From Opitutaceae bacterium (lineage in GTDB: Bacteria; Verrucomicrobiota; Verrucomicrobiia; Opitutales; Opitutaceae), in assembly GCA_028822375.1 (NCBI GenBank), contig JAPKDW010000007.1, positions 1 to 41,904 on the forward strand: 41,904 nucleotides of DNA, written 5' to 3'. This document shows positions 4,615 to 40,213 of this stretch, in pieces. Below the pieces are notes generated by a model. It was not told the origin of the DNA. It worked only from the letters and a program-made list of their open reading frames with translations, and made no database searches. The translations under genes and the position numbers were made by a program. How positions within the stretch are numbered: position 1 is the stretch's first letter; every line of letters starts with the position of its first letter.

Positions 4615-5796
4615 TCACTCCCCTTTTCGAAGCAACCATACCCCTGCTACGCCAACTGCAGCCACAGCCGGCAAACAGGCCCAAATAAGCACCGACCAGC
4701 CGAACTCGAAAAGAAACCACCCTGCTCCCAACGATGCAATCGCTTGCACGCCAAAGACCGCGAAATCATTAGAAGCCTGAGCCTTAAAGCGCTCCGAGTT
4801 ACGATAAGTCTTTGGCAACAAGGCCGTTCCTCCTAGAAAGAGGAAATTCCAACCAACGCCTAGCAAGATTAAAGAACCCAAAAAATGCATCAGCTCCTGC
4901 CCCGCCAACCCAACCGCCATCATAGATCCATAGACAACCGACCCCGCAAGCAACACACGACCAATTCCCAAGTTCTTAATAAGCCACCCGCCAAACAAGC
5001 TCGGCAAGAACATCGAAGCAATGTGTATTTGAATTACGCGTTTTGTACTCGAAAGATCAATACCGCATATTTCATGCATGTTTAGCGGGGTGGCGGTCAT
5101 AACGAAACTCATAACTCCAAAACTGACCCCACTGGCTAAGATCGCTATTACGAAAAGCGGATTCCGAGCGATCTCCAATACGGATCGAGCAGGGGCCTCG
5201 TCTTTCTCAATTGAAACAGTCGGTTCTTTGAACAGAGAGAACACCGCCATCGAAACTAAAATCAACCCCGCTAAAAGCAAAAACGATCCCGCATATCCAT
5301 GCGGCGAATCAATCAAATCCTTACCCAACAGACCAATCTCCGGTCCTATAAAAGCCGATACGATTCCTCCAAGCATCATCACCGAAAATGCCATGGGAAA
5401 ATCATCCGGATCTTTTAAACTCTCAAGCGCTGCAAAACGAAACTGCTGAGCAAACGCCAAATTAACTCCAAGCAGAAACGCGCTCGATAAAAACAATCCG
5501 AAACTCGCGTTCAAAGCCGCCTGTATCGCCAAGAACGATCCAAGCAAGGCAAACCCATACCCCACATAAGAGCCGCGCTTGCGCCCAACCCGCTTCATCA
5601 ACATTGCCGCCGGAATCGTCGCTACCGCCGTACCCAAGATTAAGGCCGTAAAAGGCAACGTCGCCAATTTTGGTGACGGAGCCAAATGCTTTCCCAACAG
5701 TCCACCCACGAACACCATCAAGGGAGCGCTCGACATCGCCAAAAACTGGCAAACCGTAAGCACCCAAACATTTCGCGGAAGACGTCCAATCGACAT
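4615..5796 (-). CDS. MFS transporter
   Basis: 393 aa, about 12 hydrophobic segments, loop motif AMLMKRVGRKRGSYVGYG. Confidence 0.88.
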   Translation of the reverse strand: MSIGRLPRNVWVLTVCQFLAMSSAPLMVFVGGLLGKHLAPSPKLATLPFTALILGTAVATIPAAMLMKRVGRKRGSYVGYGFALLGSFLAIQAALNASFGLFLSSAFLLGVNLAFAQQFRFAALESLKDPDDFPMAFSVMMLGGIVSAFIGPEIGLLGKDLIDSPHGYAGSFLLLAGLILVSMAVFSLFKEPTVSIEKDEAPARSVLEIARNPLFVIAILASGVSFGVMSFVMTATPLNMHEICGIDLSSTKRVIQIHIASMFLPSLFGGWLIKNLGIGRVLLAGSVVYGSMMAVGLAGQELMHFLGSLILLGVGWNFLFLGGTALLPKTYRNSERFKAQASNDFAVFGVQAIASLGAGWFLFEFGWSVLIWACLPAVAAVGVAGVWLLRKGE

Positions 5797-5913
5797 ATCT
5801 CCAATGTAATGCTCACCGGACCCTTTCTAAGCGAACAAATAATCCATTGCCAAATATACTCGATAATCCAACATTCCGCTAACCAATCCTTTAACCCAAA
5901 ACCCTCCAAAACC

Positions 5914-7662
5914 ATGAGGCTTTCTCGTCTACTCCTGATTCCATTCATTCTTTGCTCTCTCAAACTCTCTGCCCAAGATTCCGAGCAGTTCCCACTCGGA
6001 GCCGACTCGCTGCCACAAGCAGGCGTTCCTAAAGGCGAGCTCGTCGAATACACCTTCGAAGAAAGCTCTATTTTCCCCGGTACCTTTCGCGAGTACTGGG
6101 TGTATGTGCCTCAACAATACGACGGAACGAAACCCGCCTGCCTCTATGTTTGCCAGGATAGAGTCATGTACGAGGCGCCTACCGTATTCGACAACTTGAT
6201 CCACAAAGGCGAAATGCCTGTGACCATCGGCGTCTTCATTCGCCATGGACGTGTCCAAGCGCTTGACCAGCCGAATTCTCTTGATCGCTACAACCGAGCT
6301 CATGAATACGACGGATTAGGCGATAACTACGCTCGTTTCCTCATCGACGAGCTTCTGCCCGAAGTAGAAAAGAAAACAACCTCGGACGGTCGAGCAATCC
6401 GAATCTCGAAAGATCCCAACGACCGAATGATCGCCGGCAATAGCAGCGGCGGCATCGCTGCGTTCACTGCAGCCTGGGAACGCCCCGATTCCTTCCGACG
6501 CGTATTCACTGGCGTTGGCACCTACGTCGATCAAATGGGGGGCGATCTATACCCGTCCCTCATTCGAAAAGTCGAACACAAGCCACTTCGCGTTTTTCTC
6601 CAAGACGGCAGCAACGACAACAATCTTCAAGGCGGCGATTGGTGGATGGCTAATCAAACGATGCTCAGCGCGTTTCAATTTTCCGGATACGACGTAAATT
6701 ACGCCTTCAGCGACGGCGGCCACAATCAAAAACATGCCAGCCAGGTATTCCCCGACGCCATGCGTTGGCTCTGGCGCGATTGGCCCAAGCCACTAAAAGC
6801 GAATCCCAACGACAGCTCGCGTGCTCCTATCGCAAAACTCCTCGGACCCGAAAGCGAATGGCAGCTCGTTAGCGATGGGCATTCCTTTACCGAGGGGCCA
6901 GCAGTCAACGCTCAAGGCGAACTCTTTTTCACCGACTTGAGAACCGGCGAACTTTTCAAGTCCAATCCTGATAGATCCGCAAGCGTCTTCGACAAGGACT
7001 CCGGCTCCAACGGACTCCAATTTGGTCCCGACGGCAAACTCTACGCATGCGCCAACGCATACCAGCAAATCGTCGCCTACGAGACCAATGGCAGCAAGAC
7101 GATCATCGCCGAAGGCCTCGGTTCCAACGACATCGCAATCTCCCACAACGGCAACATCTACGTCACCGACCCGAAAGCGAAGAAAGTGTGGCTCATTTCT
7201 CCTAACGGCGAAAAACGCGTGGTCGACGAAGGGATCGAATTTCCGAACGGAGTCCAATTCTCTCCTGATCAGAGTCTCCTCTACGTATCTGACACTCGGG
7301 GCCAGTTCGTATACAGCTACCAAATACAAGCCAACGGATCGCTCGCCCACAAGCAACGCTTCTACCATCTTCGCATCGAAGATGGGGCTATTCAAACCAG
7401 CGCTGACGGCATGACGGTCGATAACGAGGGAACGCTCTACGTAACTACCGAGATGGGTATCCAATTCTGCGATCAAGCAGGTCGCGTCAAGGGCATCATA
7501 AATCGCCCCCAAAACGCTTGGCTATCCAATGTAGTAATCGGAGGCCCCAACTTCGATCAACTCTACGCCACCTGCAAAGACAAGGTCTACGTTCGCTCAA
7601 TCAATGCGAAGGCGTCTCTCTCCTACCAAGCTCCCATCACCCCAGCCAAGCCAAGACTGTAG
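5914..7662 (+). CDS. Secreted esterase (enterochelin-esterase-like) fused to SMP-30/gluconolactonase-like beta-propeller
   Basis: Signal peptide MRLSRLLLIPFILCSLKLSAQ at 5914; esterase GNSSGG nucleophile motif; C-terminal LVSDGHSFTEGPAVNAQGELFFTDLRTGELFK and FPNGVQFSPDQSLLYVSDT typical of SMP-30. Confidence 0.88.
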   Translation: MRLSRLLLIPFILCSLKLSAQDSEQFPLGADSLPQAGVPKGELVEYTFEESSIFPGTFREYWVYVPQQYDGTKPACLYVCQDRVMYEAPTVFDNLIHKGEMPVTIGVFIRHGRVQALDQPNSLDRYNRAHEYDGLGDNYARFLIDELLPEVEKKTTSDGRAIRISKDPNDRMIAGNSSGGIAAFTAAWERPDSFRRVFTGVGTYVDQMGGDLYPSLIRKVEHKPLRVFLQDGSNDNNLQGGDWWMANQTMLSAFQFSGYDVNYAFSDGGHNQKHASQVFPDAMRWLWRDWPKPLKANPNDSSRAPIAKLLGPESEWQLVSDGHSFTEGPAVNAQGELFFTDLRTGELFKSNPDRSASVFDKDSGSNGLQFGPDGKLYACANAYQQIVAYETNGSKTIIAEGLGSNDIAISHNGNIYVTDPKAKKVWLISPNGEKRVVDEGIEFPNGVQFSPDQSLLYVSDTRGQFVYSYQIQANGSLAHKQRFYHLRIEDGAIQTSADGMTVDNEGTLYVTTEMGIQFCDQAGRVKGIINRPQNAWLSNVVIGGPNFDQLYATCKDKVYVRSINAKASLSYQAPITPAKPRL

Positions 7663-7720
7663 TTTCTCAAAGAAGATCTAATCGACTAGCAAACAGACTA
7701 TCTGAACAAACCGCCTCTTT

Positions 7721-7927
7721 TCAGCAAGCTGCCATGAACATGCGATTGTCGGTACCCTTTTCGCCAATACGGGCTTGATAAAGTTTACCACACCGAGGGC
7801 AGCTTCCGACATACGCTGTACCTTCGTCGTTCTGGTACAATCGACCGTAACAAGCGCAATTGACAAAGCGAACGCCCAGAAAGCGTTTTCCTTTGTTAGA
7901 CACTTTTCGAGAAAGCTGCGAACGCAT
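7721..7927 (-). CDS. Small zinc-ribbon-like protein
   Basis: MRSQLSRKVSNKGKRFLGVRFVNCACYGRLYQNDEGTAYVGSCPRCGKLYQARIGEKGTDNRMFMAAC; CxC...CPRC cysteine pairs; A/G-rich RBS upstream. Confidence 0.6.
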   Translation of the reverse strand: MRSQLSRKVSNKGKRFLGVRFVNCACYGRLYQNDEGTAYVGSCPRCGKLYQARIGEKGTDNRMFMAAC

Positions 7928-7951
7928 GCTTCGAACCTTTCCTTTTCCCTT

Positions 7952-8458
7952 TCAAGACGCAGTTGCCGCGTACTCAAACTGACTAGCTAGAACTTCCATT
8001 GAACCGACTAGCGACATCCAATGGAAATCGTCTCGTCCATAGGGTTCCCAGCTTTCGACTACAGAAGCATGACCATCTTTCTGCCACATAAGCATGTAGT
8101 AGTCCATACCCTGTTCGCCATCGCTATGGTCCTGGCATTCGAGCAAAAATGGAAGATCCAAGAAACTGAATACCGGATGGTCTTTCTCGATATTCGTTTG
8201 AAGTACGTTTACTTCCGGCGACCGATCCTCGGAACCAACCAATTCGCAATCTTCCAAAAACTCCCATACAGTTTCACAATATCGAGCGAGCGTTAGCACG
8301 TTCGAATCATCATTGAAAACCACTGAATACACCTGCTCCGGACCATTTGCCGGAACATGAATCAAACTAACGTAATCACCGCTAAAGCGGTGATTTCCCT
8401 TATGACAAGGGGTAAATGAAAGTAACATGGAAAGGTACTGATCAATATCGTTTGTCAT
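7952..8458 (-). CDS. Hypothetical protein (168 aa)
   Basis: AGGAGG Shine-Dalgarno upstream of ATG; complete ORF between flagellin and zinc-ribbon ORF. Confidence 0.7.
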   Translation of the reverse strand: MTNDIDQYLSMLLSFTPCHKGNHRFSGDYVSLIHVPANGPEQVYSVVFNDDSNVLTLARYCETVWEFLEDCELVGSEDRSPEVNVLQTNIEKDHPVFSFLDLPFLLECQDHSDGEQGMDYYMLMWQKDGHASVVESWEPYGRDDFHWMSLVGSMEVLASQFEYAATAS

Positions 8459-8478
8459 TAAATGCCTCCTATTTTGGA

Positions 8479-9372
8479 TTAACCGAGCAAACGAAGTACG
8501 ATCTGCGGCAAGCCGTTGGCTTTATGCAGCATCGAAACACTCGCTTCCGTTAGTATCTGGTTTTTAGCCAAACGAGTCGATTCAACCGCAACATCCACGT
8601 CACGGATACGAGAATTCGCCGCCATCAAATTTTCCTGCTGCACCTGCAGCTGCGTTCCCACAATATTCAAGCGCGACTGCTCCGCACCAATGTTCGCTCG
8701 TTCCTGAGCTACCTGCGCCACTGCGGCGTCTAGTGCTTCTAAAACATTAGCGCTGTCTACGTTCACATCAGCTTGGGTTCCGTCCACCGAGTTATCCCAA
8801 ATCAAATTGGATATGCCCGATCCGATTTCACGGAGGTTCACTTGGCCCACGGTCATCGACTGCGAACCCGAAGCTCCTATGACGACTATCATGTCAGCCC
8901 GCGCTCCAAAAAGCTCAATGCCATTAAACGACCCAATAGGCGTGGAGCTAGAAGCATCCCAATTCGGATCGCTATCAGTCCCATTATCCCCTACGCCAAT
9001 TGTATCGCGCAATTGGTTTTTCATATGCTCGTATTCAGAACCATACAACGTGCGATCTTCAGGAGTTTTCGTTCCATCCGAAGCGAGTACCGCTAGTTCA
9101 TTCATACGATTGAGCACCTCGCCCATCGACTCCAGAAATCCATCGAGCGTCTGCGAAAGCGAGACCGCATTCTGTATGTTCGTCTGCGCGGCTTCGATCC
9201 GTGAATTTTGAGCCTGAATTTTCTCCGAAATCGATAACCCTGCCGCGTCATCCGACGGTTTAACGATTTTGTTGCCCGTACTGAGTCGAGCCATCGAGCG
9301 GTTCATCGCCGCTTGGCTTCGCTGTAATGCAGAAGATGCTTCTATTGCATTTTGATTAGTATTTATAACCAT
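8479..9372 (-). CDS. Flagellin
   Basis: N-term MVINTNQNAIEASSALQRSQAAMNRSMARLSTGNKIVKPSDDAAGLSISEKI and C-term ESTRLAKNQILTEASVSMLHKANGLPQIVLRLLG are canonical D0/D1 flagellin. Confidence 0.97.
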   Translation of the reverse strand: MVINTNQNAIEASSALQRSQAAMNRSMARLSTGNKIVKPSDDAAGLSISEKIQAQNSRIEAAQTNIQNAVSLSQTLDGFLESMGEVLNRMNELAVLASDGTKTPEDRTLYGSEYEHMKNQLRDTIGVGDNGTDSDPNWDASSSTPIGSFNGIELFGARADMIVVIGASGSQSMTVGQVNLREIGSGISNLIWDNSVDGTQADVNVDSANVLEALDAAVAQVAQERANIGAEQSRLNIVGTQLQVQQENLMAANSRIRDVDVAVESTRLAKNQILTEASVSMLHKANGLPQIVLRLLG

Positions 9373-9378
9373 ATTATG

Positions 9379-9390
9379 ACCTCATCCCTT
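9379..9390 (-). promoter_or_regulatory. Putative CsrA-binding (AGGGA) site overlapping flagellin Shine-Dalgarno
   Basis: Minus-strand leader AAGGGATGAGGTcataatATG contains ANGGA immediately upstream of the flagellin start. Confidence 0.4.
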
Positions 9391-9418
9391 AGGTTTTAGC
9401 GAACAGTCTCGAACCTTA

Positions 9419-9703
9419 CTACGATTCTGCTCTATCTTTATCTTGCTTCCTGCTTGCCAAGCGTTTTGCCAGCCCAGAGAGCTGTGGCTTAGTGGCAGAT
9501 TCTCCTGTCGCGACCACCGGAGCGGCAACCGCTTCACGATTAGTCGCGGAAACTTCTTCCACGAGTTCTTTACGTACAATCGGTATCGAACGCGGCGCGT
9601 CGATTCCCAGCTTTACGACATCGCCATCGATGCGCGTAATGCGAATTTCTATGTTGTCGGCAATGACTATTGCCTCGTTTACCTTCCTGGATAAAATGAG
9701 CAT
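9419..9703 (-). CDS. csrA: Carbon storage/translational regulator CsrA (C-terminally extended)
   Basis: [51 protein letters not shown]. Confidence 0.97.
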
Positions 9704-9721
9704 GGCTGTTTCCTTCCTGGG

Positions 9722-10171
9722 TTAGCCGTTAACAGAATCTGATAATATCGAATGCTTGGTTGAAAACCTCATATGGTTCGAAACGATCACTTGCTTTCCA
9801 AGCAACGAATTACGATTCAATATAATTGGGGCGACAAGATTGACGGTAGCAGACTCAATATCCCCACCATCACGGATAGTTACTATATTTAAAATGAGAG
9901 CGTCACCGGCATTTTCAATCCCCAGAGCCTTAGCGTCGTCGTCCGAAACCTCTATCTCGTAGTCGCATAAAATCTCTGACGGTTCGATCACGATAAATCC
10001 AAGTTCGTGATTTCGCTTCGAGCGGATCCACATAAAGGGAAGCTCCTCGCCGTTAACCAACAATTCAAACTCAAGATCGTCAGGAAAGCCTAGCATCCCT
10101 TTCGTCATACGAAACTCGATCGGTTTTACCCAAATTTCTTTATCCTCTAGCGATTCAGTTGCCAATTTCAT
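9722..10171 (-). CDS. fliW: Flagellar assembly factor FliW
   Basis: ...ATVNLVAPIILNRNSLLGKQVIVSN motif; adjacent to csrA. Confidence 0.93.
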   Translation of the reverse strand: MKLATESLEDKEIWVKPIEFRMTKGMLGFPDDLEFELLVNGEELPFMWIRSKRNHELGFIVIEPSEILCDYEIEVSDDDAKALGIENAGDALILNIVTIRDGGDIESATVNLVAPIILNRNSLLGKQVIVSNHMRFSTKHSILSDSVNG

Positions 10172-10202
10172 GACTTATAAAAGTTCAATAGTTCTCTACG
10201 CT

Positions 10203-11156
10203 TTATATATAATTAAGCAGAGATGAGTTGAGTACCTTGCCAGCGCTTTGCAGCGATGCTTGATACGAATTCTGTATTTGCGTTAAACGAACGATCGTCT
10301 GGGAGAGATCCGCATCCGCTTCCGTTGAAATATTTTCCTCGAGATCCATGAATCGTTGCTGACTCAAATTTTGGTCGAATTCGATTCGCAACTGGACCGA
10401 ACCTTGACGACTCAACGAGAAGATTAAATCGTCCTCAGAAGCTTCAAGGTCTTCTCGAATTGTTGAAGTCACCGCGTTTTGGTCACCGCTCTCCAATGCA
10501 TCGCGAAGTTTCACCATTCGATTAATGAAATCGCCGAACTGCTCATTCGTGGTTCCATTGGTAAATGGCGACACCTTACCTGATTCGGATAAATGAAACT
10601 CAGGACCCTTGGCTGCACCCTGATAAGTGATCGCCGATCCGGCACCCAATCCATCAGGATCTTGAATTTTTCCATCAATATCCAGATTAACCGCGAACGG
10701 CTCGGTCCCACTAGCGGTACCGCCAAAAATATACTCGCCATTGAATTTGGCGTTTGCGCTCTGCAAAGCATGCTCGATCAACTCATCGACCTCTTCCGCA
10801 TAAGCATGCAACCCTTCCTTACCCGTCAAATCATTGGCCAAGGTTGATATCTCACCTACTCGGTCCGATATTCTTAAAAAATTTTGTAGCTGGGAAATCG
10901 TCGTGTTGTTTATATTTTTAGCGCGATCACCGTTTCTCGAATACTGAGTAAGCTTACCCTTTTCCTCTTGCATATCGAGGATACGATTTCCTGCTGCCGA
11001 ATCATCGGATATATCCGTAATTCTCTGCCCATTCGCCGCCTGCTCTTGCAATGAATTCATCTGCTTTGTAATACGCTGCAAATGACGCAAAAGCGTATCG
11101 GGATAGGGGAAGCGAGTACTAACGAAATCTTCTGATTGACGCCTAGTGGCTGCCAA
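10203..11156 (-). CDS. flgL: Flagellar hook-associated protein 3 (FlgL); native start apparently lost at a deletion junction
   Basis: VSTRFPYPDTLLRHLQRITKQMNSLQEQAANGQRITDISDDSAAGNRILD ... IQNSYQASLQSAGKVLNSSLLNYI. The listed start is TTG within fliF-like sequence. Confidence 0.85.
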   Translation of the reverse strand: MAATRRQSEDFVSTRFPYPDTLLRHLQRITKQMNSLQEQAANGQRITDISDDSAAGNRILDMQEEKGKLTQYSRNGDRAKNINNTTISQLQNFLRISDRVGEISTLANDLTGKEGLHAYAEEVDELIEHALQSANAKFNGEYIFGGTASGTEPFAVNLDIDGKIQDPDGLGAGSAITYQGAAKGPEFHLSESGKVSPFTNGTTNEQFGDFINRMVKLRDALESGDQNAVTSTIREDLEASEDDLIFSLSRQGSVQLRIEFDQNLSQQRFMDLEENISTEADADLSQTIVRLTQIQNSYQASLQSAGKVLNSSLLNYI

Positions 11157-11185
11157 AGGTCTCTAAATTGATTAATCAGTCCCAT
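11112..11185 (-). pseudogene. fliF: 5' remnant of fliF (MS-ring protein) fused to flgL
   Basis: Minus ATG at 11185, 22 nt after fliE stop, with GGAG RBS: MGLINQFRDLWQPLGVNQKISLVLA, then FlgL coding sequence in another frame. Confidence 0.7.
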
Positions 11186-11207
11186 TCAAATTGTCTCCAA
11201 AAATTGG

Positions 11208-11552
11208 TTAAACCGGCATCCTCATCAGTTCCTGATAGGACTGAACCAGCTTATTGCGCACTTCCACCAGCATCGTGAACGCGAGTCCCGATTCCTGCAT
11301 AGCAATCATCGATTGGTGAATATTGTCCGTTTCTCCAAGAAGGAGTTTATTCGTCTCCGCCGCAGCGACCTTACCCTTGTCATCGACCTCCTTCACAAGG
11401 TTGCCAATCATATTTCCGAAAGATTCGCCTGAATCGCTACTCGGCAGTCCTTGCAACTCTTGAGGCTGCAAAGCGTCCTTCCCTTTCAATTGGGAAAGCA
11501 TAGATTGGCTAAACGCTTGTTGAGCCGCTATATTGGAATTCGCTTCAATCAT
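11208..11552 (-). CDS. fliE: Flagellar hook-basal body complex protein FliE
   Basis: ETNKLLLGETDNIHQSMIAMQESGLAFTMLVEVRNKLVQSYQELMRMPV. Confidence 0.95.
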   Translation of the reverse strand: MIEANSNIAAQQAFSQSMLSQLKGKDALQPQELQGLPSSDSGESFGNMIGNLVKEVDDKGKVAAAETNKLLLGETDNIHQSMIAMQESGLAFTMLVEVRNKLVQSYQELMRMPV

Positions 11553-11586
11553 GATCGCTCTATAATAGGATAAACTTCTCGATTAG

Positions 11587-12014
11587 TTATTTCCCGATTC
11601 GCAACGCTTGCTGCGCCATTTGTTTCGCGGTTCTCACTACTTGCAGATTAGCTTCATAGCTCCGCGAAGCCGCGATCATATCCACCATTTCGTGTGTCAA
11701 ATTCACATTGGGCAGTCGAACATACCCTTTTTCATCAGCATCAGGATGAGTCGGATTGTAGACCAAAGCACCAACGGTCTTATCGCTTTCTATAGACTTC
11801 ACCTGAACGCCTATAGTCATAATCTTCGACCCATCTTCTTTTACACCGACTTCCATGAGCTTCGATTCGAAGCTGACCATCTGGCGGGCATACGGCTTTC
11901 CATCGAGTCCGCGGGTAGTGTGGCGTTTGCGATATTCTGGCCGATGATGTCCAATCTCACCTTTTCCGCGGCTAAGGCGGAAGATGTGCTTTCAATTCCA
12001 GGTAGAATATTCAT
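11587..12014 (-). pseudogene. flgC: Flagellar basal-body rod protein FlgC, frameshifted
   Basis: Frame 1 from ATG 12014: MNILPGIESTSSALAAEKVRLDIIGQNIANAT; continues in another frame as TRGLDGKPYARQMVSFESKLMEVG...EMVDMIAASRSYEANLQVVRTAKQMAQQALRIGK*. Single-base loss near 11917-11921. Confidence 0.88.
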
Positions 12015-12041
12015 AATGATTCGTTCTTAATTAGAGTAGAT

Positions 12042-12423
12042 CTACACTTGGCCGGTAATCGCCGTCTTGATTCGGTTAAGGGAATTCGACGCGTACTGAG
12101 CAAGAAATTCGAATTGCATCGAATTCTGATTCATCTTCAAAAGTTCCGAATCGAGCTGAACGTTGTTTCCGTCAGGCCTCACGCTCGGCGAGTTCAGGTC
12201 CACTCCAACCGGAGCTTCGAATTTGGAAATGCTCGCGCATGTCGTTGCCCGAGGCTAGTTTTTGCAATTCCTGAGCAAAGTCCGCTTTGATGTCGCTCCG
12301 CTTATACCCTGGAGTCTCGGCATTCGCCAAATTTCCTGCCAAGGCCTGATGGCGAGCATGAGACACATCTAGCAGCTTTTTCGCTAGGACGTAATTCTCG
12401 CGCTCTAAGATTTGATCAATCAT
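12042..12423 (-). pseudogene. flgB: Flagellar basal-body rod protein FlgB, frameshifted
   Basis: Frame 1: MIDQILERENYVLAKKLLDVSHARHQALAGNLANAETPGYKRSDIKADFAQELQKLASGNDMREHFQ; frame 2: FEAPVGVDLNSPSVRPDGNNVQLDSELLKMNQNSMQFEFLAQYASNSLNRIKTAITGQV*. Extra base near 12222-12224 (A-run on minus strand). Confidence 0.9.
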
Positions 12424-12626
12424 GCCATGCGCTTAGCAAAGCGCGTGCACATATCCAATTAGGATATCATAAGTACCTTATAAGCAATGAATTAAAATCT
12501 TAAAATAATCCATCCCCGATACGCAAATCGCAGCGCTGGCAATTATTGCCTACCTTCGAGGCCCACCGTCATACACGAAGAAATCGCTGTTCAAACGAGG
12601 TGCTGCCACATTTCGAAATTTGAAAC

Positions 12627-13133
12627 CTAAGCAGGTTCTTCACTCTTTCGCTCCATCGCGTAACGATCGAGAAAAAGCAGCGAGTCCGGATTTCCTTCAG
12701 CCATTTTTAACTTATCGATCATATCGGAAACCGACTTCTCCTCCTCGACCTGCTCGTCTACAAACCATTTTAAAAATGAAACTGTCGCGAAATCGGACTC
12801 ATCCTGCGCCAGCTTGTACAAACGATAAATATTCTCCGTAACCGAGTGCTCTTGCTCAAGACTTGCCTCGAAAACTTCCCGCACAGAACCGTATTCCCAA
12901 CGCGGAGCCTCGATTGCAGGTAGCCGAGCCACGCCCCCTCGATCGTTCAAATACTGGTAGAATTTCATCGCGTGCTGATGCTCTTCAGAGCTCTGCAAAT
13001 GCATCCATTGAGCAAAACCATCGAACGCTTTACGCTCGAAGTAAGCCGCCATCGAAAGATAGGATTGCGAAGCTGAAAATTCTATCCCGATCTGTTCGTT
13101 GAGTGCAGTTTCCAATTCTTTGCTGATGTTCAT
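12627..13133 (-). CDS. Ferritin
   Basis: MNISKELETALNEQIGIEFSASQSYLSMAAYFE...SSEEHQHAMKFYQYLNDRGG ferritin ligands. Confidence 0.96.
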   Translation of the reverse strand: MNISKELETALNEQIGIEFSASQSYLSMAAYFERKAFDGFAQWMHLQSSEEHQHAMKFYQYLNDRGGVARLPAIEAPRWEYGSVREVFEASLEQEHSVTENIYRLYKLAQDESDFATVSFLKWFVDEQVEEEKSVSDMIDKLKMAEGNPDSLLFLDRYAMERKSEEPA

Positions 13134-13156
13134 ATCCAGAACCTAGAGGCTCATTC

Positions 13157-14359
13157 TTAATGGTCGAGCGCGAAACTATCGCCATTCGCGGTTTCCACCG
13201 TCGTCTTGCCAATCGTCCTGCGTCCTTGCCAAACATACGGACATTGCTTCTCGAAAGGCGGAACGCTTGGCATCGATATCGACTGAAATTCCGGCCCAAT
13301 TGCTTCCAAACGAATCGCTGAAGACCAGTCTCTCCCACGCTCATCACCAGCCTCCCAAGAGCTCGATTTCTCTAAAGCCAGACCCAAGAGAGAAGGACCA
13401 AGATCGAGCAAGCTCACTAGCAAGGGATCACGGCGAGCCCCGCCCAAACCGCTCGGCCAAGACATTAACAGCGGAACCCTTATCGCCTCTTCATAAGGCC
13501 AACCCTTTCGAAACACTCCATGCGATCCATGCATATCCCCATGAGCCGATGTAAAAACGAACAAAGTATTCTCCCATTCGCCATTCTGTTTCAAGCAATC
13601 AATCAAACGCCCAATAGATCGATCTGTAGCTTCGATATGCGCGTAATAGCCACCCAGTTCAGTCCGAGCTGTCGCACGGACAGAACCCTTCTCGGGTACA
13701 TTCTCATCAAGTAAAATTGTCTCCGGAACTCGGGTCGGAACTCCCGCAGCATCTTCGGCATAGGGCGGGTGCGGAGCATCCAAACTCAAGAAAGCAAAGA
13801 ATGGATTCTCCGGGCCGCGCGTATCCAAGAAATCGATGGCACGGTCTACGATCACATCCGATTGATACCCTTTCAATTGCTTAGGAGCGCCTAGGTTCGA
13901 CCCATGATAAAAGCCGTCATTTAGCAAAAAACCCGACTCGAATCCTTCCCAAAACTCAAAGCCGACTCGACGATCAACCGGAACCTTGATCTTCGCATGG
14001 GCCTCTCCGACTACCGCGTCATTCGGATTTCGTTTGTAAAGCTGCCATTTCCCGAAAAACGCAGTGTCGTATCCTTGCTGGCCAAAACAGTGCGCTATCG
14101 TTCGAGAATCCTTGGAAAGCGAATCGTAGTAGTCTCGAATTCCATTACTCGGACAAGCCGTTCCGGTTAAAAACGCCGCCCGAGCGAAAACGCCAAATGG
14201 ATGAGGCGTTACTGCCTGGAAAAAATCGATCGCCTCCTCTGCCAACGCATCCAAACAAGGCGTCACCGCATTGCCATCGCCCGCAAAACCCGTCGATTGA
14301 GCCCTCCATTGCGTGGTCATCACAACAACTACGTTCGGACTCTTTTCAACAGCGCTCAT
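13157..14359 (-). CDS. Sulfatase-family protein with degenerate active site (probable pseudosulfatase)
   Basis: Overall sulfatase architecture (PNVVVVMTTQWRAQ...TPCLDALAEEAIDFFQAV...ARAAFLTG...GKWQL...FTSAHGDMHGSHGVFRKGWPYEEAIRVPLLMSWP), but no CxPSR. Confidence 0.88.
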   Translation of the reverse strand: MSAVEKSPNVVVVMTTQWRAQSTGFAGDGNAVTPCLDALAEEAIDFFQAVTPHPFGVFARAAFLTGTACPSNGIRDYYDSLSKDSRTIAHCFGQQGYDTAFFGKWQLYKRNPNDAVVGEAHAKIKVPVDRRVGFEFWEGFESGFLLNDGFYHGSNLGAPKQLKGYQSDVIVDRAIDFLDTRGPENPFFAFLSLDAPHPPYAEDAAGVPTRVPETILLDENVPEKGSVRATARTELGGYYAHIEATDRSIGRLIDCLKQNGEWENTLFVFTSAHGDMHGSHGVFRKGWPYEEAIRVPLLMSWPSGLGGARRDPLLVSLLDLGPSLLGLALEKSSSWEAGDERGRDWSSAIRLEAIGPEFQSISMPSVPPFEKQCPYVWQGRRTIGKTTVETANGDSFALDH

Positions 14360-16384: not shown

Positions 16385-17842
16385 TCAACGCAACTCATTC
16401 GGGAGTTGTTCATATCTATATCTTAGAGACTCCAGGACCTTTTTAAATTCGTCCCTATCGAACTGCTTTCCCATCGGAAGGGATTCCTCGCTCAACAGGT
16501 TATTAATCAATGCGCAATATCGACTATCGACCATCAGTCCAAGCAGCTCTCCAGTCTTCGAGAAGACTAAGTCACCTTTGGTAGGAGAAAAGTCGCCGAA
16601 AATACGACTGAATACCTTGGACTGCATCCGAACGTAACCGGGAGTATTCGCGGTCAGTTTAAATTCAACTTCGCCATAATAATCCCCCTTTTCATCGATC
16701 AAAATCGCTTCGGAAAACTTGAATGGCTTCAGTGCCGTATAGAATAATTCACCTCCAAGAGATTCTGCTTCTTCTTTTGAGACCCGCGTCGCAGCGATCC
16801 TCGGGTCTAACGCCAAAAACTCCAGAACCGGTGGGACCAAACGAGCATCTCCTCGAACGAGTTCAGAGCTTACTCGGCGGTAACCCAAGGAACTCTTCCC
16901 GAGGCCCAATGGTGTCGAACTCAGATGAGAAAGCGCATAAATAGACTCTCCATCCGAAACAAGAATGGTCATCGCCTGCTCGTCATCCTTCAACTTTTGA
17001 CCGCGATAGTAACGATCAGAAGTAAACGTGGTCACGATTCGGCTCTGATTGAATTTTGAGAACAAAGTATTAGCATTAACCGGTAAGCTCGATCGAAACT
17101 CCTCCGTAAGATCCTGCGAACGCTCAGCTAATTCAGTTATCCCTTCAGCCATCTGAGTGGTTTGCGCTTGCAGCTCTTTGCGCTCAGCTCGCTCGGCAAC
17201 AACTTCGCCTTTAAGCGTATCGACATTCTCCTGAAGCATTCTTTTCTGCTCATCAGAAACACGTACTTGTATATTTAATTCTTGAATACGCGATTCCGCT
17301 TCTTTCTTCGCCACTTGCTCCTGCTTTAAAGCTTCCTCTTTCCGTTTAATCTGTTCCAACTTATCGTCTAATTCTTCTTGTAGCAAACGGGCCTGAGCCT
17401 CGGTTTGCTTCGCTTTCGATTCCAGCGATTGGTATCTCAACTCCAAATCGACAATCGATTCCTTGGCTTGTTTCGCGCTCTCCTGAAGAGTCTCCTTCTC
17501 TACTGCCAGTTCATCCTCACGAGCGCTAGCCAACTCCAAGTCGCCACGCAGGTCCTGGATTGACGCGTCTCTTTCATCAATACGCTTCTCAGCATCGTCC
17601 AACTCCTTCTGCGAACGCTGCGTTTCGTCCTGCAATTGCTCTTGAGCCACCTGCTCCTCTTCCAAGGAAGCTTTCAATGTATCCAACAAATCCTGCTCCA
17701 TCATCGCCATAGAGGAAACGCTCTGTTCTCCCGAGTCGGCGGGCAGTGTGTCCTCCGACTTCGTTTCCTCCTCCCAATCGACAAGCGACAAAAGGGTGAG
17801 AAGCAGAAAATCGCAGATGATTAATAACAACGTCTTATTCAT
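16385..17842 (-). CDS. N-terminally anchored coiled-coil protein with C-terminal trypsin-like-fold (degenerate) region; ExbD/MotB-like anchor candidate
   Basis: N-term TM with Asp: MNKTLLLIICDFLLLTLLSLVDWEEE; about 200 aa heptad-rich Glu/Lys/Gln region; C-term ...SPTKGDLVFSKTGELLGLMVDSRYCALI. Confidence 0.7.
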   Translation of the reverse strand: MNKTLLLIICDFLLLTLLSLVDWEEETKSEDTLPADSGEQSVSSMAMMEQDLLDTLKASLEEEQVAQEQLQDETQRSQKELDDAEKRIDERDASIQDLRGDLELASAREDELAVEKETLQESAKQAKESIVDLELRYQSLESKAKQTEAQARLLQEELDDKLEQIKRKEEALKQEQVAKKEAESRIQELNIQVRVSDEQKRMLQENVDTLKGEVVAERAERKELQAQTTQMAEGITELAERSQDLTEEFRSSLPVNANTLFSKFNQSRIVTTFTSDRYYRGQKLKDDEQAMTILVSDGESIYALSHLSSTPLGLGKSSLGYRRVSSELVRGDARLVPPVLEFLALDPRIAATRVSKEEAESLGGELFYTALKPFKFSEAILIDEKGDYYGEVEFKLTANTPGYVRMQSKVFSRIFGDFSPTKGDLVFSKTGELLGLMVDSRYCALINNLLSEESLPMGKQFDRDEFKKVLESLRYRYEQLPNELR

Positions 17843-17847
17843 CGTCG

Positions 17848-19548
17848 TTAGGCAGACTTCACCTTCGTACTCGTACTCAAGGTAGCGAGCTCTTCCTGGC
17901 TCGCGAGAATCAACTTGTTTTTAAACGGCCTCACCAACTGAATTTTTACGATCGCCACTCCTAAAATCCCGAAAAGGTTAGAGCTGTAGGCAGCGATCAA
18001 ATTCGCTTCAATTAGTCCCAATACTTGAAGAACCAAAGAAATACAGGTCCCAGCGATTCCAACGTAAAGCCCAGAGTCGAAAAGGTTTTCCTCGTTCTCC
18101 ATCAGCTTTAATTTGATAAGATTATCGTAATCGCTTCGATCGACTTGACGCACTTTTAAGAGACAGATCATAAAGACCAGTATCTGGAGCGTAAAAAAGA
18201 AGGAAACGGATAGCAGTGTTGCGGGTTCCATAGATGCAGTAGGTTCGGTTTCTACGATAACGGTTTCGCCATCTACTTGAGCAAGTACCGGCATTACAAA
18301 TTTAAATGAGTATCCTTGAATCTCGTCGCTGCCAGCCAGGTGAGGTTCACTCAGAATGACAAGGACGATAACGGAGGCGAGCGAAACGAACAGCCTCTGA
18401 GCGCTCGCGAGTAATTTCGGGTTTGATTCACGATATGAACGATTAAATCCACCCAAGCCCCAAAAGACTAAAAACGCTCCTAGAAAATAGGCCAAGTATT
18501 TTACTGCGAGAGACGACTTTGGATTCTGAAGACTATAGCTAACGAGATATGCCTCGAACGAAGAGACCTCTACCGAACCCGCATCTGCTTCCAAAGGAAG
18601 TTGCTCCCTCACAAGCATCTTTATCGCGTCCACGCCATACCCCGCCGCAACGCGCAAGGCATCTATCCCATCGTCGCCGAATAGTCCGAGAAACTGCATC
18701 ACGCGGGCTGGATCATCCACCACCATCGCAGACGCGTAAACCAATGGAGCCACATCCGCTCTCCGATGAAACGCATAACGCAGTTTCTTCACCGTATCCA
18801 AATCTTCGATCCTCCCGAAAAGCGCTTCAAGCTGCCCCCAATTCAACGAGCGAGACAACGAAAGCGCATCGAGATAGAAATTTTCCAAGACCGCCACATC
18901 GCCTGACGCCAACGCATCCGCAATGCGACTCCTTAATTCTCGCTTTAGCGTCGGCCGCAGCCGATCCCCCTGAACGAGAAGCCCGAGAGTTAGTAACGTT
19001 CCTTCCAACGGCCGGCCAGAAACGCTTTGAACAGGAAACAGTCGCTTGTAAGTTGATAGCCTACCGGTTTCCATCAAGTCGCGAACCATCGGGTCACGCG
19101 AATTCTCAAGTAGCCCTCGAATAGCATCGCGGCAAGGCTTCGAAAGAGCGACTCCAAGAATTCCCGGCTGATCCGAATAGTCGGCGAGTGGCACCTCATC
19201 AAGAGCCGCTTCAAGAAACGGATCCCATGCTCCCCAGCGGCTCAGCACCGGATTCAGATCTTCCCACTTTGTCAATTGATCCTCGAGAGCCTCTACGCCA
19301 TCTAAGCCCGCGATCTGATTTGCCTCTAGGTACTGACGAGCCAATCCCGCCTCTTCCTCCTCCACTGCCATTTCCGCCAAGTCCACCATTGATGCCGAAC
19401 GAACGCCCGCTTCATGGAGGATTGCTCTTGGTATCGATTTAAAACGCGACGGAATAAGCCAACCAAAACCCACCAGAACAACCCCCAGGACCAACAGGAC
19501 CAAGGGGCCAACGATTCGGCTAAGATTGTTATTCTTGAGAGACGTCAT
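17848..19548 (-). CDS. Multi-pass membrane protein with C-terminal ExbB/MotA-like TM pair (candidate)
   Basis: TM1 at N-terminus, about 300 aa soluble helical region, then several TMs; C-term LFDSGLYVGIAGTCISLVLQVLGLIEANLIAAYSSNLFGILGVAIVKIQLVRPFKNKLI. Confidence 0.65.
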   Translation of the reverse strand: MTSLKNNNLSRIVGPLVLLVLGVVLVGFGWLIPSRFKSIPRAILHEAGVRSASMVDLAEMAVEEEEAGLARQYLEANQIAGLDGVEALEDQLTKWEDLNPVLSRWGAWDPFLEAALDEVPLADYSDQPGILGVALSKPCRDAIRGLLENSRDPMVRDLMETGRLSTYKRLFPVQSVSGRPLEGTLLTLGLLVQGDRLRPTLKRELRSRIADALASGDVAVLENFYLDALSLSRSLNWGQLEALFGRIEDLDTVKKLRYAFHRRADVAPLVYASAMVVDDPARVMQFLGLFGDDGIDALRVAAGYGVDAIKMLVREQLPLEADAGSVEVSSFEAYLVSYSLQNPKSSLAVKYLAYFLGAFLVFWGLGGFNRSYRESNPKLLASAQRLFVSLASVIVLVILSEPHLAGSDEIQGYSFKFVMPVLAQVDGETVIVETEPTASMEPATLLSVSFFFTLQILVFMICLLKVRQVDRSDYDNLIKLKLMENEENLFDSGLYVGIAGTCISLVLQVLGLIEANLIAAYSSNLFGILGVAIVKIQLVRPFKNKLILASQEELATLSTSTKVKSA

Positions 19549-20195: not shown

Positions 20196-20346
20196 ACCCC
20201 GATTCGCTCAATCTTAATTTGCGCCTACCGACGCAAGACGAATCCATTCAAAGATATAGCACTACAAATGGCCGATATGTCTGCCTGATTTCCCACGAAA
20301 TTCTACGAATTTAGAAAAGCGGAAGGTCAATCCCAGAAAAGAAGAT

Positions 20347-20390
20347 GGCGGACTGTCTACCCCTAAACAGTCCGCCTTGGTTTTCTTCTT
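20347..20390 (+). terminator. Rho-independent terminator downstream of def
   Basis: GGCGGACTGT-ctacccctaa-ACAGTCCGCC followed by TTGGTTTTCTTCTTT. Confidence 0.85.
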
Positions 20391-20648
20391 TACCCCAAAA
20401 TCCCGCTAAGCGGGAAATCGTTGTTCATAATAAGTACGGTCTATCTGTTTCGAAATCAAGCAAAAGTTTAGATTTTTTCATATATATATATTTTACAAGT
20501 AGATTCACTAATAGGGTAAAGTGAATGCTTATCGTTTTCGGCAACGAAACCTGCCCTTTGCGCCCCCGATGCCAGATTCGAAGAATCCCTCATTTCAAAA
20601 GCAACCTTTTGGTATTCAGAAACAAACCTTCGCTCTTCGAGTTTCAAA

Positions 20649-36800: not shown

Positions 36801-36873
36801 CGATCGGCTGACAGGATTTAAGCCACTTTTTGTTGGAGCGGCCGGCGAATTTTTTGAAAAGTGATGAGAACAT
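33850..36873 (-). CDS. secA: Preprotein translocase subunit SecA
   Basis: [45 protein letters not shown]-terminal [14 protein letters not shown] zinc motif. Confidence 0.99.
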
Positions 36874-37154
36874 GGTTGCTCTATATAAATGAAGCCTGTC
36901 CGCGTATCGAAATGCCGACCAGCTTGCAATGAAAAGGTTCTAATTTTGCTTCGAGTTCACGTCATTCATTACGGACACGGCAGGCTTTGGTTGAGTTATT
37001 AAGGCACTCTGTCTCAGTTGGAATAACATGATTTCGTGAAGTTCTGTCTTAAATCAGCGCCTATTTGCGCATTTGATCCACTCGATATGCACAAACTCGG
37101 CCAATGGGGTCAAGAACTGGAAGGTTTTCGAATACTCAAAACACTCAGCTTCGA

Positions 37155-37937
37155 TCAAGCCAAGTTCTTGTTGGTAAACGCCAGCCACACTGCCGGTCCG
37201 TGCACGTGATCGGCTTCGAGTTTTTCTTCCGCAATCTCAAAACCGAAATACTCGAACGCGCGAAGCATCTCCGGTTTCTCCATCCAATTGCAAGACTCAC
37301 TCCCGCCGCCGCAAAAACCCTTCCAGCTCAACGCGTCCCCGTAACCATAAGCGTGAAGACAATGCTCGAAGCCCTTATGAGAAGCCGTCCAAGAACCCGA
37401 AAATTTGCAGCGAACATGTTCTTTGGCCTCGACCAATTCCGCATCGTAGTAATGCGTCCAAACAAACAAGGACTTCACCCGACGCGAGAGCAGCTCAATC
37501 AGCTCGACTGGATTTTTCATGTGATAGAGCACTCCCGAAGCGACTCCGATATCGAACACTTCGTCGCCCTCTCGCAAAAAATCGACGAAGTTACCCAATT
37601 CAAATCGAGCGGCCTTCAGATTCAAAAGTTCCTTAACAACGAGGCACCGCAGATAAGCATCCGCGTTTCCTTCAATTCCTCGAATCAACTTTGCCCCTTT
37701 CGACTCCATCATCGCCGTGTGACAAGCCTCGAGAGGACCGAGCTCCAAAACCGTCTTATCCTGAAATCCTCCGAAAGCCTCGGACGCCCAATGAATTCGG
37801 GCATCGTCATGCAACTTGCCAATTCCTTTGGAATCGACGCCCATTTCGTCAGGCATGATGGAAAACCACTGCCCTTCGAAGAGATCGATCGCGTTCTGGT
37901 TACAAGGACTCCGATCGAAGTAGTTATCTTTTCTCAT
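37155..37937 (-). CDS. Class I SAM-dependent methyltransferase
   Basis: KTVLELGPLEACHTAMMESKGA ... VFDIGVASGVLYHMKNPVELIELLSR. Confidence 0.85.
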   Translation of the reverse strand: MRKDNYFDRSPCNQNAIDLFEGQWFSIMPDEMGVDSKGIGKLHDDARIHWASEAFGGFQDKTVLELGPLEACHTAMMESKGAKLIRGIEGNADAYLRCLVVKELLNLKAARFELGNFVDFLREGDEVFDIGVASGVLYHMKNPVELIELLSRRVKSLFVWTHYYDAELVEAKEHVRCKFSGSWTASHKGFEHCLHAYGYGDALSWKGFCGGGSESCNWMEKPEMLRAFEYFGFEIAEEKLEADHVHGPAVWLAFTNKNLA

Positions 37938-37961
37938 GCTATCGCTTACTGAAATCCGAAG

Positions 37962-38900
37962 CTATTTCTCACCCTCCAAATAGTCGCGAAAATAAGCGAT
38001 GGTATCCTTCAAGCCTTCTGCCAATGGCACCTTCGGCTCCCAGCCAAGATACTTTTTAGCGAGCATAATGTCCGGCTTCCGCTGCTTCGGATCATCTGAC
38101 GACAGCTCTTCGTGAATGATCTTCGATTTCGTGCCGGTCAACTTAATCACATTCTCTGCAAGCTCTAGCATAGTGAATTCAACCGGATTTCCAATATTGA
38201 CTGGCCCAACCGTTTCCTCCTGCTCCATCAAGCGGACGAAACCATCAATCAAATCGCTGAAATAGCAAAACGATCGAGTCTGGGTGCCATCTCCGTAAAT
38301 CGTGATATCTTCGCCTCTCAATGCCTGAACGATAAAATTCGAGAACACCCGTCCGTCTTCAGGCGACATCCGAGGGCCGTAAGTATTAAAGATACGGGCA
38401 ACGCGAATATCCACGCCATTCTGACGATGATAATCGAAAAACAGCGTTTCCGCGCAACGCTTCCCCTCGTCATAACACGAGCGAATGCCGATCGGGTTCA
38501 CATTCCCCCAATACGACTCCGGTTGCGGATGCACATCGGGATCGCCATAAACCTCTGAAGTGGAAGCCTGAAAGATGCGCGCGTTCACGCGTTTGGCTAA
38601 CCCGAGACAATTAATCGCTCCCATTACCGACGTTTTGACTGTCTTGATTGCGTTGTGCTGGTAATGCACGGGCGAGGCGGGACAGGCCAAATTGTAAATG
38701 CGATCCACTTCGAACTTAAACGGATCCGTCACATCATGACGGATAAATTCGAAGTTCGGATGTCCAAGCAAATGAGCGATATTCCGTTTCGCTCCCGTGA
38801 AGAGATTATCCATACAGATCACTTCATTTCCTTCACTGAGCAATCGATCACTCAAATGGCTCCCCAAGAAACCCGCTCCTCCAGTTATCAATACTCTCAT
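37962..38900 (-). CDS. UDP-glucuronic acid decarboxylase-like SDR epimerase
   Basis: [21 protein letters not shown]...[35 protein letters not shown]...STSEVYGDP. Confidence 0.93.
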
Positions 38901-39064
38901 AATTCTAATTCGCTACACGTTTCGACCCGATTGGTACCGCCGATACGACATCCCTTAATCATTCATCCAACTGATGAATTTTCCCTTGTCAAACGACGCC
39001 TCCATTTTATTCTAAAACCCTCAGAGCAATATTAGTAAAACGTACATCTACCGTAGACCGGGCA

Positions 39065-40213
39065 TCAACCCTCTTCCTTATCCTTATCGCCTGACTCATA
39101 CCGTTCGATCCACGTCCGACTCCATGAAGCAAAATCTCCTGCTTCGATATGCTGTCTCGCTTGAGCCATTAAATCCAAATAGAAATGCAAATTGTGGATC
39201 GTCAGTAAGGTACAACTGAGCATCTCTTTCGCCATCGTCAAATGACGTATATACGCTCGGCTAAAATGAGCGTTCGTATAATTATCCAACCCTTCGACCA
39301 AAGGCGCAGGATCACTCGTGAAGCGCGCATTCCGAATATTCATCATCCCCTCAGGCGTGAAAAACGCCCCATTGCGAGCAACCCGCGACGGCAAAACGCA
39401 ATCAAACATATCCACCCCAAGAGCGATCATCTTCAACATCTGAGGCGGCGTCCCCAAGCCCATCGTGTACCTGGGCTTTTCCTCCGGTAAAAAAGGAATC
39501 GTCACGCCCACCTGATGGAGCATCTCCGGCTCCGGCTCGCCAACGCTCACTCCGCCAATCGCGTATCCCGGTAAATCCAGAGCAGCCAATTCCTCGGCCG
39601 ATTGGCGACGCAGATCCTCGAACGTCGATCCCTGAGCAATTGCAAACACGTGATGCCCCGCATCCAAGAAGCCCAAATCCTCAGCGATACCCTTACAAGC
39701 CTTCGCCCACCGAGTCGTACGCTCGACAGCCTTTACGCAGGCATCCTTCTCGCACGGCCAAGGAGGACACTCGTCTATCACCATCGCGATATCCGACCCG
39801 AGATTCGCCTGAATGGTCATCACTTCTTTCGGGCCCAAGAAAACCTTTGATCCATCCAAGTGCGACTGAAAGGCGATTCCCTCTTCGCTCAGCTTGCTCA
39901 ATTTCGCCAAGCTAAACGCCTGAAACCCCCCGCTGTCGGTCAAGATAGGACCATCCCAGCCCATAAACGAATGCAAGCCGCCAAAGTCCCGGATCAACTC
40001 CGACCCAGGACGCAAGTTCAAGTGATACGTATTCCCCAAAATAACCTGAGCTCCAATATCCTTCACTTGGGCAGGCGTCATCCCCTTCACCGTACCTTGC
40101 GTTCCAACCGGCATAAATATCGGCGTTTCGATATCGCCATGCAAGCTGCGTAACCGCCCTCGACGGGCCGCCGTGTTCTCGTCTTTCGCCAAAATTTGGA
40201 AGTGATCGCTCAT
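39065..40213 (-). CDS. tgt: tRNA-guanine transglycosylase (queuine tRNA-ribosyltransferase)
   Basis: IETPIFMPVGTQGTVKGMTP, LTDSGGFQAFSL, IAQGS, GYAIGGVSVGEP motifs. Confidence 0.98.
   Translation of the reverse strand: MSDHFQILAKDENTAARRGRLRSLHGDIETPIFMPVGTQGTVKGMTPAQVKDIGAQVILGNTYHLNLRPGSELIRDFGGLHSFMGWDGPILTDSGGFQAFSLAKLSKLSEEGIAFQSHLDGSKVFLGPKEVMTIQANLGSDIAMVIDECPPWPCEKDACVKAVERTTRWAKACKGIAEDLGFLDAGHHVFAIAQGSTFEDLRRQSAEELAALDLPGYAIGGVSVGEPEPEMLHQVGVTIPFLPEEKPRYTMGLGTPPQMLKMIALGVDMFDCVLPSRVARNGAFFTPEGMMNIRNARFTSDPAPLVEGLDNYTNAHFSRAYIRHLTMAKEMLSCTLLTIHNLHFYLDLMAQARQHIEAGDFASWSRTWIERYESGDKDKEEG

Follow-up and report, generated by a model that had tools for sequence, protein, structure and literature searches.

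A probable recent loss of the flagellum recorded at a fliF–flgL deletion junction in an Opitutaceae genome

Results

Remnants of a flagellar gene cluster

The window analysed here, a stretch of 41,904 nucleotides, is the entire contig 265 of the genome of an uncultured bacterium of the order Opitutales, family Opitutaceae (G000; 4.56 Mb in 457 contigs, 93.4% complete), which was compared with a set of genomes of the same genus that includes G001–G005 and G007–G010. On its minus strand, the window carries flagellar genes in the order flgB-flgC-fliE-(fliF stump)-flgL-fliW-csrA-fliC (table 1), next to non-flagellar genes whose names, ferritin-like and sulfatase-like, were assigned from sequence only.

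Table 1. Features of the flagellar locus and its flank in the window.
Feature	Position	Strand	Description
ferritin-like and sulfatase-like flanking genes (non-flagellar)	12627..14359	−	intact; collinear with G002, G007, G009 and G010
flgB	12042..12423	−	one base inserted near 12238, which shifts the frame at about codon 64
flgC	11587..12014	−	one base deleted near 11922, which shifts the frame after codon 31
fliE	11208..11552	−	intact, 114 aa, 92% identity to G002
fliF stump	11057..11185	−	26 native codons plus out-of-frame tail; 42-aa frame, ends with TGA
deletion breakpoint	11107..11109	−	fliF-derived to 11109, flgL-derived from 11107; G002 has 28,126 bp more here
flgL remnant	10203..11107	−	codons 8–307 in frame; without start codon, ribosome site and first 7 codons
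fliW	9722..10171	−	intact
csrA	9419..9703	−	intact
fliC (flagellin)	8479..9372	−	intact, 297 aa

A tRNA-Ser(TGA) gene lies near the flagellar locus, at 2542–2629. Elsewhere in the window, at 20338–20415, there is a 78-nt non-coding stretch with a hairpin (ggcggactgt...acagtccgcc), whose counterparts in G007 and G010 show 97% and 80% identity, respectively, the surrounding DNA being far less alike; it may be a terminator or else a small repeat element. In an Rfam scan, a tRNA was the sole match, with no family found for the hairpin stretch.

The junction between fliF and flgL

The fliF stump stands where fliF usually stands, i.e. after flgB-flgC-fliE. From its ATG at 11185 it reads MGLINQFRDLWQPLGVNQKISLVLAS and then leaves the fliF frame, to stop after 42 codons; the peptide MGLINQFRDLWQPLGVNQKISLVLAS shares 63–82% identity with the N-terminal end of FliF in seven members of the genus (E values of 1e-10 to 3e-12). 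The open frame that follows (10203–11156) is FlgL-like (Flagellin_N, E value 7e-11), and its flgL-derived part is 89% identical to codons 8–307 of the FlgL of G002. In four relatives flgL begins with MRVTNNTYPDT; the ATG and the first seven codons (MRVTNNT) are missing in the window, which leaves only a distant TTG in frame. A base-by-base comparison with G002 places the switch from fliF to flgL at 11107–11109, the C at 11108 matching neither gene of G002. A preliminary description of this DNA, made from its sequence, had proposed just such an arrangement, i.e. a credible FliF N-terminus after fliE that runs in another frame into a flgL gene deprived of its expected ATG, with most of the flagellar operon excised in between, and the comparison with the relatives bears this out.

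The same description considered the deletion consistent with recombination between short direct repeats, on the grounds that about 12 nt near the junction could be read both as FliF and as FlgL. This part is not supported. The 12 nt, GTTAGTACTCGC (11123–11112), are plain fliF sequence: 10 of 12 positions agree with the fliF of G002 without a gap and 5 of 12 with its flgL. Within 40 bp of both ends, the longest strings shared in four undeleted relatives are 4–6 nt in length, which shuffled sequence gives as well, and none is located at the breakpoint, so that these relatives do not have identical short repeats at the two ends. No insertion sequence was seen at the junction, and neither a recombinase gene, with most of the G002 genes in the absent 28 kb scanned, nor the ends of a mobile element were seen at the breakpoints. 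As inferred from these comparisons with relatives, the join thus looks homology-free, although in the undeleted parent of the G000 species the two ends may have had one to three repeated bases.

A block of 28 kb is missing relative to close relatives

The closest relative, G002, has 80–82% identical DNA and is collinear with the window on both flanks of the junction: window positions 7721–11107 correspond to 5331–8718 of G002 and positions 11109–14285 to 36845–39997. Between the two flanks, G002 has 28,126 bp which carry the rest of the flagellar cluster from fliF to flgK, i.e. flgK, flgN, flgI, flgH, flgA, flgG, flgF, motB, motA, a gene for a FliA-like sigma factor, flhA, flhB, fliR, fliQ, fliP, fliO, fliN, fliM, fliL, flgE, flgD, fliK, fliJ, fliI, fliH, fliG and fliF together with a few unnamed frames. 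The layout is just as intact in G007, G009 and G010, where the two points are about 28–29 kb apart and the genes on both sides of the G000 junction are in collinear order. The full cluster is therefore found at the same place in relatives with collinear flanks, and no relative was found that combines the order fliE-flgL with a normal flgL start.

The removed genes were also searched for in the rest of G000. No match to FliF, FlhA, MotA or FliD was found in this 457-contig, 93% complete genome; all seven genus members with fliE have FliF, FlhA and MotA, and six of them have FliD. G002 DNA from the missing 28 kb, used as a query against G000, gave no match beyond its adjoining stretch 16845–18000, from the fliF stump to flgB, which served as a built-in positive control. 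Relocation of the flagellar genes within G000 can thus be rejected as far as 93% completeness allows, their absence not being absolute because the genome is fragmented and incomplete.

A second deletion at the fliD locus

In the relatives fliD belongs to a separate locus, and this has been lost from G000 as well. On contig C356 of G000, mobA, a MOSC-like gene, a small frame and glnS adjoin one another, without the approximately 6.5 kb that hold fliD, a lipoprotein-like frame, fliS, an FlgN/FliT-like frame and a sigma-54 response regulator gene in G002. The same block is present in G010 by DNA match, and G003 likewise has the stretch from fliD to the regulator. That a second locus is missing with its flanks joined makes a one-off misassembly unlikely.

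Two further observations concern these genomes. On contig C105 of G002 (L060:2046-2609), two frames that stand apart in G003 and G009 appear to be fused into the one that precedes fliD, which suggests a small deletion at this point in G002. G000 has kept one chemoreceptor-like (MCP) gene (C268:8039-8506, L061) despite the flagellar loss, and neither G002 nor G010, both with flagellar genes, has a match to that MCP family.

Frameshifts and age of the loss

Compared with G002, a single base has been inserted in flgB and a single base is missing from flgC. All other window genes comparable with relatives are in a single frame, and general sequencing frameshifts are rejected because only these two genes are affected. 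Disabling mutations are thus found in flgL, which has no start, as well as in flgB and flgC.

The remnants have otherwise hardly changed. Synonymous divergence between G000 and G002 is high (dS mostly 0.6–1.6; 0.32 for csrA), and dN/dS of the remnants against G002 is 0.01–0.07. With G010 as outgroup, or G007 for fliC, the unique amino-acid changes on the G000 and G002 branches number 9 and 11 in fliC, 0 and 2 in csrA, 4 and 8 in fliW, 9 and 11 in flgL, 1 and 2 in fliE, 4 and 3 in flgC and 2 and 1 in flgB, or about 29 against 38 in total, without any excess on the G000 branch. It follows that flagellar loss is recent on the scale of G000–G002 divergence; by a rough calculation, constraint on the remnants can have been lifted only during roughly the last one or two percent of the G000 branch.

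Flagellar losses elsewhere in the genus

None of G001, G005 and G008 has a match to FliE, FliF, FlhA, MotA or FliD. At the same locus (contig C164, L077:2643-3908), G001 has the first 50–60 codons of flgB, an intact fliA of about 270 aa and the end of fliW, and, by our reading of the sequence, probably also the last residues of flagellin. The sigma-28 gene fliA, placed between the flgB and fliW/flagellin stumps, is the only whole flagellar gene there, and its product is 93–96% identical to FliA of three flagellated relatives. A special retention of fliA was considered; the fliW remnant, too, is without excess decay, and the loss in G001 may therefore simply be young.

In G008 the only fragment (L079:6237-6350) matches fliE codons 15–52, is too short and diverged to be detected by the family search, and lies between the sulfatase gene and tRNA-Ser at a contig end. 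The sequence from the sulfatase gene to tRNA-Ser in G005 has no flagellar match. In both G005 and G008, tRNA-Ser almost directly adjoins the sulfatase gene after the loss of the flagellar genes.

In an rpoB tree, G000 is sister to flagellated G002, G005 groups with flagellated G003, G004 and G010, and G001 and G008 form a pair, which requires at least three flagellar losses in the genus. The remnants in G001 and G008 differ, so that even in this pair the losses were at least completed separately.

Discussion

Our data indicate that the window very probably records a recent loss of the flagellum. The absence of the genes, the junction and the frameshifts are features of the assembly itself, and the missing genes entail a loss of motility. 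As to the order of events, we infer that an ancestor had the full cluster flgB-flgC-fliE-fliF-...-flgK-flgL-fliW-csrA-fliC, from which a single deletion of about 28 kb, extending from fliF codon 26 to flgL codon 7/8, would have removed some 30 genes, including those for the MS ring, the C ring, the export gate, the hook, the stators and sigma-28. A second deletion elsewhere would have taken fliD, fliS and the sigma-54 regulator, and flgB and flgC were frameshifted either earlier or later. The resulting cell would be unable to build a flagellum. fliE, fliW, csrA and fliC would still be there since too little time has elapsed, with csrA perhaps persisting for other work.

The little decay seen in the near-normal flagellin, FliW, CsrA and FliE is in keeping with a young loss, but equally with an artefact of assembly or of strain mixture at this locus. 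In a mixed population, the deletion would be present in some cells and the full operon in others, i.e. the loss would be strain variation and not fixed. The barely decayed remnants are compatible with this, as is a fragmented and probably metagenomic assembly, the named near relatives (Opitutales/Opitutaceae) being metagenome-assembled; the assembly, however, holds no second version of either the junction locus or the fliD locus, and we regard such a mixture as unlikely. Even less probable is a chimeric assembly or binning artefact, in which the flagellar block would still be in the cell, the contig misjoined and the block left out of the bin. The genome is indeed fragmented, and a junction without homology is something that amplification chimeras can have. 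Yet no string shared at the junction is long enough to mislead an assembler, on another contig the separate flagellar locus has gone as well and its flanks adjoin, fliF, flhA, motA and fliD are all absent, and frameshifts are confined to flgB and flgC. Programmed or mobile-element excision, with a recombinase cutting out the flagellar block at specific sites, might be suspected from the nearby tRNA-Ser and from the repeated losses that the genus shows at this one locus, but it is hardly credible given that remnants and breakpoints vary between lineages, that the ends have no repeats and that a scan of all but a few small G002 genes in the 28 kb brought up no recombinase family.

We tentatively suggest that the genus may discard its flagellum repeatedly and quickly, flagellar genes having been lost independently from this one locus at least three times and G001 keeping sigma-28 alone whole there. 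If so, this would imply ongoing selection against flagella in part of the range of the genus and perhaps a non-flagellar job for sigma-28. In G000, flagellar loss has been caught early, and comparison with a close relative in which the cluster survives locates the breakpoints with a precision of one or two bases. With its several flagellar losses, the genus could offer a natural series for studying when and why swimming is given up. Taken alone, the window is one further case of a common evolutionary event.

No account of flagellar loss in this group came up in our literature searches. In Shigella and other host-restricted bacteria, recently non-motile lineages have flagellar gene deletions and frameshifts, and such losses are often tied to insertion sequences and host restriction. 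G000 shares the deletions and frameshifts, but its junction has no visible insertion sequence and nothing points to a host. The closest published parallel found is the Flag-2 cluster of Escherichia coli, which in strains K-12 and B is, as outlined in PMC3032704 (citing Ren et al. 2005), reduced to the end genes fhiA and mbhA as pseudogenes, and whose flgC homologue lfgC is frameshifted in strain 042 (PMC3032704). On that account, a whole flagellar cluster is missing with remnants left behind in K-12 and B as in G000, and the lfgC frameshift resembles that in flgC of G000; in contrast, E. coli lost a secondary flagellar system, G000 the only one found in it, and both the phylum and the breakpoints, which in G000 lie in fliF and flgL, are different. 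The G000 case is a well-documented new example of a known event, the reductive loss of a flagellar cluster by deletion; it is ordinary in kind, and its early stage together with the repeated losses within one genus place it above the routine.
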